From positions 3,782,001 through 3,846,000 of the forward strand of contig NZ_CP108549.1 of NCBI RefSeq assembly GCF_036010325.1: a stretch of 64,000 bases of DNA, read 5' to 3'. The position numbers and the translations under genes are program-made. The stretch is from Streptomyces sp. NBC_01210. Lineage in GTDB: Bacteria; Actinomycetota; Actinomycetes; Streptomycetales; Streptomycetaceae. The notes beneath the pieces were generated by a model. The model did no database searches, was not told the DNA's origin, and saw only the letters and a list, made by a program, of their open reading frames with translations. This document shows, in pieces, positions 7,311 through 26,054 of the stretch. How positions within the stretch are numbered: the stretch's first letter is position 1; every line of letters starts with the position of its first letter.

Positions 7311-8143
7311 GAGCGGCCGTCTCCCCGATGCTCGTCAGACTCGCGGACGAGCGCGCCACCGGCGTGCTGGTACGCGACCACGGAGCCCTCTATCTGGCCG
7401 ACGGCCAGGTCGTCCACGCCGAGAGCCCCGATGCACCCGGACTCGACGTCCTGCTGACCGCGCGCGGCCGGCTGGAGCCCGGCAGCTGGGCGGACGCGGT
7501 CGCGCGGGCCGGCTCGCGCGGCGAGGTCGCCCGCTTCCTCGTCGACAGCGGCCAAGTGGCGGGCGGCGAGCTGGAGATCTGCCATCTCGGCGCGCTGTTC
7601 GACGCCGCCTTCTTCGCCTTGGCGCCCGCCAGTGGTCCGACCCGCTTCCGCTACGGCGTCGTCCACTGGATCGGCCGGGTGCGTCCGGTGCCCACCCAAG
7701 TTGTCGAGCGCGAGGCCCAGCGCCGCAGCCGGCTGCTGGATGCCGTGTGGCCCTACCCCGCGGTCGACACCGCGCCGCTGGTGCGCTGCCCGCGCACCGC
7801 GGGACGGGCGGTCGGGCCCCGCCGGCAGTCGCTGCTGGACCTCGCCGACGGCGTACGTACGCCGGCTGTGGTCGCCCGGGAACTGGGACGCCCCGCCTTC
7901 AACACCCTGATCGAGGTGCGCAGGCTGGCCGCCGAGGGGCTCATCGCGACGCCCGTCGGGTCCTCCGCGCCCAGCGAGCCCGCCGCCGTTCCTGAGACCG
8001 CGGCGCCGAGTGAGCCCGCTGCCTTGCCCGAGACCACGGCTCCCCGCGAGCGCGCTGCCTTTCGGGACACCGCCGAGCCCCCGTCCGTCCTGGACTCCGC
8101 CCTGCTCCGCCGGCTCCGCGACGCCCTGGAGGCAAACCTGTGA
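7307..8143 (+). CDS. DUF4388-like protein with a C-terminal acidic/Ala-Pro tail
   Basis: A 278-residue protein. Residues 8-60 (LVRLADERATGVLVRDHG, then ALYLADGQVVHAES) match the pattern of DUF4388/PATAN-type domains seen in bacterial signalling proteins. The middle resembles a winged-helix segment (LLDLADGVRTPAVVARELG) that could read out the N-terminal domain. The last 50 residues are a low-complexity tail of repeated EPAA/ETA units, then a short helix. The start overlaps the previous stop by ATGA. Probably works with the adjacent Roadblock proteins; a specific role cannot be given. Confidence 0.65.
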   Translation: MRAAVSPMLVRLADERATGVLVRDHGALYLADGQVVHAESPDAPGLDVLLTARGRLEPGSWADAVARAGSRGEVARFLVDSGQVAGGELEICHLGALFDAAFFALAPASGPTRFRYGVVHWIGRVRPVPTQVVEREAQRRSRLLDAVWPYPAVDTAPLVRCPRTAGRAVGPRRQSLLDLADGVRTPAVVARELGRPAFNTLIEVRRLAAEGLIATPVGSSAPSEPAAVPETAAPSEPAALPETTAPRERAAFRDTAEPPSVLDSALLRRLRDALEANL

Positions 8144-8222
8144 CGCACCGCTCCGTACACCAGGTCCATTGCGCACCGTCATGAGACGCGCGCTGAGGCT
8201 GCGCGCCGAGAGGAGACAGCTC

Positions 8223-8609
8223 ATGACGGCCGAGGCCGACGTGCTCGCTGAACTGAAGAAGCTGCGCGTGCGCGTGCCGCAGGTGACCGGCGCACTCGCC
8301 GCCAGCACCGACGGCCTCGCGCTGGCGGCCGACACCACGGAAGCGGAGAGCGTTGCCGCGCTGACCGCCGCCGCCCTCGGCGTCGCACTGCGGCTGACCG
8401 AGGCCACCGGGCAGGGGGGCTTCCGCGAGCTGCTGGTCAAGGGCGAGCGGGGATACGTCGCGACCTACGCGGCGGGTTCCTCGGCCGTCCTCACCCTCCT
8501 GGCCGAGCCACGCATCAACGTGGGACGGCTCCACCTCGAGGCCCGCCGCTCCGGCGCCCGCATCGGCGAGCTGGTCGACGGCGCACTCGAACGACCGGAG
8601 AACACCTGA
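8223..8609 (+). CDS. Roadblock/LC7-like protein, second copy
   Basis: A 128-residue protein starting MTAEADVLAELKKLRVRVPQ, with Roadblock-like spacing: VTGALAASTDGLALA, an alanine-rich helix, then [34 protein letters not shown] split over two strands. The ATG at 8223 is preferred over the ATG at 8178 because GAGAGGAGA sits just before it. The gene ends at 8609, exactly at the left border of the IscB element. Rejoining the flanks would give a stop overlapping a downstream ATG (TGATG), so the element appears to have split this operon from the next Roadblock gene at 10415. Confidence 0.72.
   Translation: MTAEADVLAELKKLRVRVPQVTGALAASTDGLALAADTTEAESVAALTAAALGVALRLTEATGQGGFRELLVKGERGYVATYAAGSSAVLTLLAEPRINVGRLHLEARRSGARIGELVDGALERPENT
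8602..8609. repeat. Left copy of 8-bp flanking direct repeat
   Basis: ACACCTGA, containing the stop codon of the Roadblock gene. The same 8 bp recur at 10354-10361 right after the terminal hairpin of the IscB element. Confidence 0.7.
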
Positions 8610-8945
8610 CCCGTAACGGGATCCCCCGCCTGGGGGCGGGGGCTTTCAGCCCGGCCGGCTGAGAGCCCGCCATTACCAGCACCAGCCAACACCCATGGGA
8701 GGTGACCCAAGTTGGCTACGTTCCACGCAGGACAGAAGACCCACCCACCTGTGCTTCCTCAGCAGTTGGCCCTGGAATTCGAGTCAGCAGACAACCCCGG
8801 GATCAGGGACGAAACGGGGCTCGGACGCCGCAAGGCACCCGGCGTGGAACATGTGCGAGGGGAGACCACCAGCAGCGTGCCTGCTGCCGGTGGCGTCACC
8901 CCGGACCACCAGGTCCGGGAGTCCGGCCGTGAGGCCGACCCCGCC
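8610..8945 (+). ncRNA. Candidate omega-RNA of the IscB element
   Basis: IscB guide RNAs are made from the region upstream of the nuclease gene, the guide coming from sequence flanking the left end. Here four consecutive stems are visible: CCCG/CGGG (8610-8620); CCCCCGCC/GGCGGGGG (8623-8642); GCTTTCAGCC/GGCTGAGAGC with one G-T pair (8642-8666); and CCCGGACC/GGTCCGGG with a 4-base loop (8900-8919). The last stem ends 26 bp before the conserved IscB core begins at 8946. If the model holds, the guide would be read from the end of the Roadblock gene (before 8610). Ends are approximate. Confidence 0.5.
8698..8705 (+). promoter_or_regulatory. Strong Shine-Dalgarno deciding the iscB start
   Basis: GGAGGTGA, a near-perfect match to the 16S rRNA tail, lies 6 bases before a TTG at 8712-8714. 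It supports a long IscB with about 78 extra N-terminal residues, although that extension overlaps the candidate omega-RNA and the conserved core could instead start at the GTG at 8946. Confidence 0.55.
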
Positions 8946-10236
8946 GTGTTCGTCCTGGACAAGCACGGCACCCCGCTCCAGCCCACCACCCCGGCCAGGG
9001 CCCGCAGGCTCCTGGCATCCGGCCGGGCAGTCGTGGCCCGGCACACACCGTTCGTGATCCGCCTGAAGGACCGCACCGCCACCCACTCGGAGGTCGACGG
9101 TGTCGAGATCGGTATCGACCCCGGCAGCAAGCACACCGGCATCGCCGTCTTCACCACCGTCACCGGGGAGCGCCGGGGCCGGTACAGCATCCAGCTCGAC
9201 CACCGAGGCGCCACGATCCGCAAAAAGCTGGAGCAGCGCGCCGCCTGCCGGCGGGCCCGCCGCAGCCGGAACCTGCGCTACCGCGCCCCCCGTTTCCTCA
9301 ACCGCACCCGCCCGAAGAAATGGCTACCGCCGAGCCTGCGCCACCGCGTTAACACCACCACCTCATGGATGGACCGTCTCGCCCGCTGGGCACCCGTCAA
9401 GGCCGTGCACGTCGAGCGGGTCGCGTTCGACACCCACGCCATCAGCGCCGGGAAGCCGCTCGAGGGCGCCGAGTACCAGCACGGCACCCTGCACGGCAAG
9501 GAGATCCGCGAGTACCTCCTCGCGAAGTTCGGCCGCGCCTGCATCTACTGCGGCGCGACGGGTGTGCCGCTGAACACCGACCACGTCCACCCCCGCAGCC
9601 GGGGCGGATCCGACCGGGTCTCGAACCTGGTCCTGGCGTGCATCCCCTGCAACCAGGCCAAGGGCAGTCGGCCCGTCGAGGAGTTCACACCCAAGCGCGC
9701 TGCCGAGATTCTGAAACGAGCGAAGGCCCCGCTGAGGGATGCCGCCGCTGTCAACGCCACCCGGTGGGCCTTGTGGCGGGCCCTGGACACGCGGTTCCCC
9801 ACCCACACCGCCTCCGGCGGCCGCACCAAGTGGAACCGCACCCGCACCGGCCTGCCCAAGACCCACACCCTCGATGCCCTGGCCGTCGGCACCCTCGACA
9901 CCGTCACCGCCGTGCCCCGCACCGTGCTGGTCGTCGGATCCACCGGGCGCGGCCAGTACGCCCGCACCCGCACCGACAAGCACGGCTTCCCCCGCCTGCG
10001 CCTGCCACGGCAGAAGCAATTCTTCGGCTTCGCCACCGGCGACCCTCGTCCGCGCCGTCGTCCCGTCGGGGAAGAACGCGGGCACCCACACCGGCCGGGT
10101 CGCGGTCCGCTCCTCCGGGAACTTCGCCGTCCGTACCGCGAGCGGCCTCTACACGGCCCGGCACAAGCGCTTCCGTCTACTCCAGCGGGCCGACGGATAC
10201 GCCTACGCCCGCCAACCCGAAGAAGCAACGCCTTGA
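8712..10236 (+). pseudogene. iscB: IscB RNA-guided nuclease gene, frameshifted near the 3' end
   Basis: All IscB core parts are present, numbered from the TTG at 8712: PLMP-type segment (about 79-118, VFVLDKHGTPLQP), RuvC-I with GIDPGSKHTG (D136), Arg-rich bridge helix (about 170-200), RuvC-II with VHVERVAFD (E235), an HNH domain with two CxxC pairs (from C277) and TDHVHPRS (D290/H291), and RuvC-III THTLDALAVG (D388). After FGFATGD (codon at 10041-10043) the family's LVRAVVPSGKNAGTHTGRV continuation is found only in the +1 frame, because CCC at 10043-10045 has one extra C. The true tail (63 residues, target-interaction region) ends at 10236. The unshifted frame instead runs to 10361 with unrelated sequence. 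Catalytic residues are intact; the C-terminus is not. Confidence 0.85.
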
Positions 10237-10310
10237 CCCAAAGCCGAGGTTCATACGACGGCGGTCCGCCTGACGGCGAATCACCTACCCGCTGTCCTGT
10301 TCCGCAAGAG

Positions 10311-10352
10311 CTTCGTTTCCTCCCCGGCCTGACAGCCGGGGTATCCACGAAG
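10311..10352 (+). other. Right-end hairpin of the IscB element
   Basis: Outer arms CTTCGT (10311-10316) and ACGAAG (10347-10352) enclose an inner perfect stem CCCCGGC/GCCGGGG (10322-10328/10335-10341) with loop CTGACA. Subterminal hairpins of this kind mark IS200/IS605-family ends and are recognised by their HUH transposases. Confidence 0.65.
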
Positions 10353-10353
10353 G

Positions 10354-10361
10354 ACACCTGA
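10354..10361. repeat. Right copy of 8-bp flanking direct repeat
   Basis: ACACCTGA, identical to 8602-8609, immediately following the right-end hairpin of the IscB element. Confidence 0.7.
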
Positions 10362-10414
10362 TGACCGGCACACCATCGCGAACACCCAGCAGACGGAAAG
10401 GAAGTGCGCATCTC

Positions 10415-10789
10415 ATGGCCACTACCGAAAGCGCCCTCAAGGAAGCCATCACTGTCATCGAGGGCGCCATCGGCGCCGCACTCGTCGACTACAGCAGCGG
10501 AATGGCCCTCGGCACTGTCGGCGGCGGAAAGGACCTGGACCTGTCGGTCGCCGCGGCGGGCAACACCGATGTGGTGCGCGCCAAGGTGCGCACCATGGAG
10601 CAGCTCGGGCTCAAGGACAGCATCGAGGACATCCTGATCACGCTCGGCTCCCAGTACCACCTGATCCGGCTGATGAAGGGCCGCGGGGCCAACGGTCTGT
10701 TCCTCTATCTGGCGCTCGACAAGGACCGGGCGAACCTCGCCATGGCCAGGCACCAGTTGAAGAAGATCGAGGCCGAGCTGGAGGTCTGA
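10415..10789 (+). CDS. Roadblock/LC7-like protein, third copy
   Basis: A 124-residue protein ([17 protein letters not shown] start) with a clear Roadblock fold pattern: [16 protein letters not shown], a helix, [17 protein letters not shown], and [21 protein letters not shown]. The ATG at 10415 follows GGAAAGGA; an in-frame ATG at 10361 would add 18 poorly conserved residues. It was probably co-transcribed with the Roadblock gene ending at 8609 before the IscB element inserted between them. Last gene of the unit; a strong terminator follows. Confidence 0.75.
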
Positions 10790-25805: not shown

Positions 25806-25971
25806 TTCACTCCTCCATGGCCACCCTGCGCGGCCTTGACGACAAGAGTAATGCGAAGGCAAAAGCAACACTCTAGTGCTCGGGGAGGATCTTTCCAGGA
25901 TCGTGACCGGACCCGCATCCAGGACGGCGCCCCGGCGGGGCGGTCAGCTGCAGGTGGAAGCGGCAATGAAG

Positions 25972-26054
25972 TGCCCGGAGCCGGACTTGAACCGGCACGC
26001 CCCCGAGGGGCAGCGAGGTTTAAGCTCGCCGTGTCTGCATTCCACCATCCGGGC
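25972..26054 (-). tRNA. bldA: tRNA-Leu(UAA), bldA type
   Basis: Read on the minus strand, the 83-nt gene folds as a class II tRNA: acceptor GCCCGGA pairs with TCCGGGC plus discriminator A; anticodon stem GCGAG/CTCGC encloses loop CTTAAAC, giving anticodon TAA; then a long variable arm (CCCCTCGGGG) and the GTTCAAG T-loop. CCA is not encoded. In Streptomyces the only tRNA reading UUA is bldA, which controls development and secondary metabolism. I noticed no in-frame TTA codon in the window's genes by eye. Confidence 0.95.

Follow-up and report, generated by a model that had tools for sequence, protein, structure and literature searches.

HEARO elements insert next to ATGA, and intact IscB relatives are expected to act as RNA-guided nucleases whose C-terminal region reads the target motif. 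For TnpB, the RNA and the open reading frame overlap at the 3' end of the frame. Published work places the guide at the 5' end of the omegaRNA (available text of PMC9755519) and describes TnpB as processing its own mRNA into omegaRNA (accessible portion of PMC10278001). For DtIsrB, the available part of PMC9581776 describes a terminal omegaRNA hairpin that carries a Shine-Dalgarno sequence right before the coding region, and its authors suggest that this hairpin could help regulate expression.

The locus described here lies in a window of 64,000 nucleotides (the whole stretch of DNA that was analysed) from Streptomyces sp. NBC_01210. It is probably a single-copy IscB element at an ATGA site that shares with most actinobacterial copies a start codon internal to the omegaRNA, and whose protein has recently been broken in this genome. 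The element has the protein domains of HEARO/IscB OMEGA elements, a HEARO-type RNA at its left end and an insertion beside ATGA. It differs from them in that a Shine-Dalgarno sequence and a start codon sit inside a mid-RNA hairpin and in that the C-terminus of this copy is out of frame. The ribosome binding site belongs to the omegaRNA both here and in DtIsrB as far as the available text describes it, but there the coding region comes after the RNA, whereas here the start codon lies in a helix and ~160 nt of scaffold appear to be translated. Similarly, one transcript would serve as mRNA and guide RNA here, as in the accessible account of TnpB; the overlap in the present element is at the 5' end of the reading frame, start codon included, rather than at the 3' end. 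The features are as follows.

8597 to 8612, forward strand: putative guide segment of ~16 nt, 5' end of the omegaRNA, adjoining the 5' end of the RNA scaffold
8613 to 10360, forward strand: whole IscB element, 1748 bp
8613 to 8869, forward strand: HEARO-like omegaRNA scaffold (Rfam RF02033)
8684 to 8717, forward strand: predicted start-codon hairpin of the omegaRNA, an inverted repeat with arms 8684-8690 and 8711-8717 (alignment columns 79-85 with 119-125)
8698 to 8704, forward strand: Shine-Dalgarno sequence GGAGGTG in the hairpin loop
8712 to 8714, forward strand: putative TTG start codon, within the hairpin's 3' arm
8712 to 8945, forward strand: putative leader of 78 codons, shared with the omegaRNA over 8712-8869; its frame is conserved and its residues are not
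8946 to 10043, forward strand: IscB core with PLMP, RuvC, bridge helix and HNH
10043 to 10045, forward strand: break in the reading frame where core and tail join, seen in this copy alone
10045 to 10236, forward strand: C-terminal tail in a different frame, 63 residues and a stop codon, the end of the family's target-motif-reading region
10311 to 10352, forward strand: right-end hairpin, an inverted repeat with 18-nt arms that are 72% complementary, with similar sequence in relatives

The IscB open reading frame matches the RNA-guided endonuclease IscB family (NCBIfam guided_IscB, NF040563) at 417 bits against a cut-off of 175, and Pfam finds RRXRR and HNH domains in it. Across 30 relatives, D136, E235, D290, H385 and D388 are invariant and H291 nearly so; all six, which we take to be the catalytic residues of RuvC and HNH, are present in the window copy. 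Family match, domains and catalytic columns agree with the original prediction that the landmarks PLMP, RuvC, bridge helix and HNH are intact. The top fold matches of the protein are IscB and IsrB, with alignments extending through the C-terminus; a structure model from 30 close homologues (pLDDT 42.8) was too poor and was set aside. Within the 9.21-Mb genome (two contigs) there is a single full IscB match, two others spanning fewer than 60 residues. A survey of 295 sampled genomes of the genus, this one counted and with at most six candidates scored per genome, finds an IscB match at E 2.5e-77 or better in 32; many further matches near 1e-8 span only ~60 residues. A Y1 transposase (PF01797), whose presence in the element or genome would characterize an autonomous IS200/IS605 element, has no match in this genome, in a search whose control was positive in 5 of 14 reference genomes. 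Among phages, only two records match, each by a short HNH stretch. Elsewhere in the window, on the reverse strand, are a c-di-AMP riboswitch (RF00379, 37632-37813, 67 bits against a gathering score of 38) and a tRNA-Leu with anticodon TAA (25971-26054), presumably of the kind called bldA in Streptomyces; the IscB open reading frame and its tail are without a TTA codon.

The limits of the element rest on end alignments with 18 of the 77 homologous loci and on empty sites in 53 genomes. Homology to relatives begins at GTAAC or a variant of it (8613) and ends just before ATGA (10361), and the element sits exactly between TGACCC (ending at 8612) and ATGACC (from 10361), which corrects the span of 8610 to 10361 originally assigned to it to 8613-10360. 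ATGA is found directly 3' of the right end in 16 of the 18 relatives, the exceptions being L012 and L053. The flanking genes are 39-194 bp apart in all 29 relative loci of a first set and 51-243 bp apart in 27 of the 29 loci of a second, the upstream gene not being found in the other two. Because three genomes are common to both sets, these measurements represent 53 distinct genomes, and in all 53 there is no room for the element between the two genes. The closest empty junctions read TGACCC then ATG (L141, L146, L148 and L167), with other close ones reading GAGCCC then ATGACC (L149 and L169), and they therefore fix the insertion point between 8612 and 10361. The insertion is precise and adjoins an ATGA-type site, as for HEARO/IscB elements. 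The upstream flanking gene (8010-8609, forward strand) encodes a Roadblock/LC7 domain (Pfam), and the downstream one (10361-10789, forward strand) has no Pfam match at the limit used; relatives align with the downstream flank from an ATG equivalent to 10415.

Positions 8613-8869 score 56.7 bits with the Rfam HEARO model (RF02033; E 2.6e-10 in 2.1 kb), short of the gathering score of 83 bits. Seven actinobacterial relatives likewise fall under 83, at 54-72 bits, in contrast to the 93-144 bits of copies from Paraprochloron (L066, 93), Bacillota (L074, 110) and Kouleothrix (L080, 144). RNAalifold, run on 26 non-redundant copies kept from 33 after near duplicates had been removed, predicts 70 pairs, 42 of them with compensatory changes, and judged by this covariation the omegaRNA is real as a conserved structure. 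The original prediction had proposed an omegaRNA upstream of the core, visible as a chain of hairpins reaching 8945. Its position is roughly borne out, but the RNA overlaps the gene by 158 nt instead of preceding it, and the hairpins beyond 8869 are assigned to a translated linker because the RNA model stops there. The guide, which we take to be ~16 nt long, would occupy 8597-8612. Matches to guide plus motif in the organism's own genome, the element's own left flank apart, carry at least two mismatches (three for those keeping ATGA), and self-targeting was rejected on these grounds. HgcC and other weak Rfam matches from the same search were treated as chance.

Initiation signals lie within this RNA. 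Only copies with 330 nt or more of sequence upstream were considered, 99 in all; in 78 of them an exact GGAGGTG is followed by ATG (38), TTG (38) or GTG (2), the first base of the start lying 10-15 nt past the first base of the motif. The start was chosen blind to reading frame. From start to core the distance is divisible by three in 77 of the 78 copies, over 18 values from 228 to 300, and changes 34 times on a tree of 66 copies; the sole exception, L046, is broken elsewhere too. When the distance is split at the RNA 3' motif, the start-to-motif part is divisible by three in 76 of 77 copies and the motif-to-core part in 77 of 77, L041 being left out since its RNA end motif is missing. The 99 copies include two duplicates, and removing these changes the counts to 76 of 77 (start to core) and 75 of 76. 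As a control, the untranslated distance from the left end to the Shine-Dalgarno sequence gives remainders of 21, 10 and 7 by copy (38 copies, as 40 of the 78 were dropped for an unmatched left end) and of 6, 5 and 2 by distinct length (13 lengths), a distribution that is not flat and runs freely off three.

The start codon also takes part in the RNA structure. Alignment column 120, its first base, is paired to column 84 in every one of the 26 copies, as A-U, U-A or U-G; the invariance of the Shine-Dalgarno sequence in the same alignment reflects the selection of its copies from among those carrying it. In 66 copies (12 of the 78 were dropped, their partner base not being found by pattern), the start base and its partner form A-T in 34, T-A in 27, G-C in one and other combinations in four. 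On the tree the start base changes 10 times, the partner 11 times and their joint state 12 times, against a mean of 30.9 joint changes (lowest 25) after shuffling of partners, a procedure that also removes relatedness. On this comparison, ATG and TTG starts covary with their pairing partner, a pattern hard to explain otherwise, so that the same nucleotides would serve both initiation and RNA pairing. Translation thus appears to begin within the omegaRNA in most actinobacterial copies, with ~160 nt of scaffold translated.

The arrangement has exceptions. Six of the 21 copies without an exact GGAGGTG plus start are non-actinobacterial and 15 are actinobacterial; at the same RNA box, nine of these 15 carry an ATG or TTG in frame, and six (L047, L054, L093, L094, L095 and L104) have no such start, the frame of L093 closing after 8 codons. 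The arrangement is therefore widespread in the sample and not universal. Among 19 non-actinobacterial controls, distances from the shared RNA box to the core leave remainders of 4, 5 and 2 in the 11 copies in which the box was found, the other eight being dropped. The upstream frame closes within 45 codons in 15 of the 19 and stays open for 72-93 codons in four (L065, L217, L218 and L223), and a Shine-Dalgarno sequence and start stand immediately 5' of the core in three of six non-actinobacterial loci read base by base (L065, L218 and L221). The Cupriavidus plasmid copies L221, L223 and L226 have no IscB coding sequence in their gene tables, which for L223 and L226 contain just two features and one feature, respectively.

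An ordinary 5' leader, with translation starting at the core GTG (8946) and the upstream open frame an accident of high GC, would account for several of these observations and is nonetheless improbable in our estimate. It would agree with the residues of the leader, which carry no mark of protein selection: observed and expected synonymous fractions are 0.273 and 0.260 in the translated RNA part and 0.344 and 0.269 in the linker, compared with 0.729 and 0.263 in the core. Frame 0 is not even the frame of largest synonymous excess in the RNA part, where shifts of +1 and +2 give 0.227 against 0.246 and 0.384 against 0.281. A selected protein domain in the leader was rejected for this reason. Annotation points the same way in part, since the best 120 proteins include lengths of ~428-434 aa beside ~505-522 aa and intermediate values, and the annotated coding sequence of one Streptomyces plasmid copy begins only at the core; the four non-actinobacterial copies with long open frames would fit as well. 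An accidental frame is hard to square, however, with 77 of 78 distances being multiples of three over 18 lengths while both sets of control distances take all three remainders, or with the early closure of the frame in most non-actinobacterial copies and the initiation signals right before the core in half of those read. Translation from within the omegaRNA is thus the preferred reading, and the case for a translated leader is one of frame-keeping, Shine-Dalgarno sequence and start codon rather than of residues. Because the leader residues show no protein selection, the reading frame seems to be selected and the encoded peptide not.

These observations can be assembled into a proposed mechanism. 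A single-copy IscB (OMEGA) element would have inserted 5' of ATGA between a roadblock-type gene upstream and a second gene downstream. Its omegaRNA guide would copy host DNA left of the element, and the IscB complex, by analogy with the family, would recognise the empty site beside ATGA, cut it and so favour retention or restoration of the element. For most actinobacterial members, ribosome binding site and start codon would both lie within an omegaRNA hairpin, so a translating ribosome must cross the 3' part of the scaffold. Translation and omegaRNA folding would then be mutually exclusive on one transcript, which could serve as mRNA or as guide RNA and never as both simultaneously, and IscB, once bound to its RNA, may act as a repressor of its own translation. 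A possible, still tentative, interpretation is that the actinobacterial omegaRNA is a translation switch: the start codon would be locked in a helix with the Shine-Dalgarno sequence in the loop, bound IscB would block its own translation, and the ribosome would unfold the scaffold, leaving each transcript as either message or guide. In the present genome the omegaRNA and catalytic residues would have been kept and the end of the target-motif-recognising domain lost.

That loss stems from the frame break. The core is in frame to 10043 and the tail runs from 10045 to 10233 with a stop at 10234-10236; third-position GC falls from 0.92 in the core to 0.86 for the tail read in its own frame, and to 0.59 when frame 0 is simply continued. 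The tail follows the frame of the adjoining core segment in 77 of 77 homologous loci (the contig of L080 holds just 18 tail residues), so the break is private to this copy, and the frame 0 that runs on to 10361 seems to reflect read-through by chance. Homologue frames and third-position GC both agree with the original prediction of an out-of-frame C-terminal tail after 10043-10045, and a comparison of where the tail continues finds no homologue among the 77 that ends in the unshifted frame. Another structure model places the break in a strand of the C-terminal beta region, and a complete C-terminal target-motif domain in frame is absent from this copy. Compared with L004, dN and dS are 0.033 and 0.357 in the tail and 0.064 and 0.237 in the core. 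Polarised changes number 32 synonymous and 31 non-synonymous on this branch and 22 and 13 on the L004 branch, a small non-synonymous excess that would indicate at most mild relaxation; the break is therefore young or an error. Different breaks inside the core occur in five of the 77 loci (L046, L057, L072, L077 and L079). L046 (2700-4290), the second Actinacidiphila oryziradicis copy, has a one-base loss in the omegaRNA besides its core break and, from these lesions, is apparently a decaying sister copy.

The private break is most likely a recent inactivation of the target-motif end, and possibly an assembly error. A sequencing or assembly error, with the gene intact in the organism, is rather unlikely in our view, even though it would suit both a tail with low dN relative to dS and a break found in this copy alone. 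Across 400 kb compared with a relative (G378), 177 homologous genes (216,661 bp) of this genome show 8 raw frame breaks, and 168 genes in the reverse comparison show 4; by these raw counts the present assembly is poorer than the relative's by a factor of about two and not riddled with breaks. Five of the 8 breaks here and two of the 4 in reverse were read individually. Of the five, two turn out to be gene boundaries, marked by a stop at the junction; the remaining three have none there and may be either real breaks or errors. Another possible frame break of this genome lies outside the window (G000:C1 near 3699592, L174). The five IscB loci with breaks of their own indicate that true decay is also common. 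A truncated product that is expressed and has a use, such as RNA-guided binding, would accord with catalytic motifs and an omegaRNA that look intact by sequence, but the break strikes the family's target-motif-reading region and no locus among the 77 shares the form; this reading, very improbable, was rejected. Programmed ribosomal frameshifting linking core to tail would explain the continued conservation of the tail in a frame of its own. It is scarcely credible, and was likewise rejected, given that the arrangement occurs in 0 of 77 loci, that no in-frame slippery codon is seen by eye and that frame 0 is open to 10361 without a nearby stop. Of the three options that the original prediction had offered, decay accordingly fits best, the break being absent in 77 of 77 loci and five of them having their own; the truncated form found no support, and an artefact keeps the modest chance given above.

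Recent inactivation being preferred, this copy is most likely a recently dead nuclease in an element unable to move by itself, because the genome has no Y1 match and the C-terminus is out of frame. Taken alone, the frame break would be a commonplace case of mobile-gene decay, or else an error. Since the copy is probably immobile and inactive, the interest lies in the arrangement found across the branch. No report of an IscB start codon within the omegaRNA was found in the literature searched, a search that lay outside the founding OMEGA and HEARO papers, and an earlier mention may exist. The arrangement also bears on tool building: the available text of PMC13180657 describes an IscB curation in which proteins with an N-terminal insertion of at least 10 aa and a suitable later start have their start moved downstream, and such curation, as described there, would remove this leader. 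More broadly, a guide-RNA scaffold would here also be protein-coding, its frame kept while the encoded peptide drifts, and the balance of effector and guide in OMEGA elements would become directly testable.
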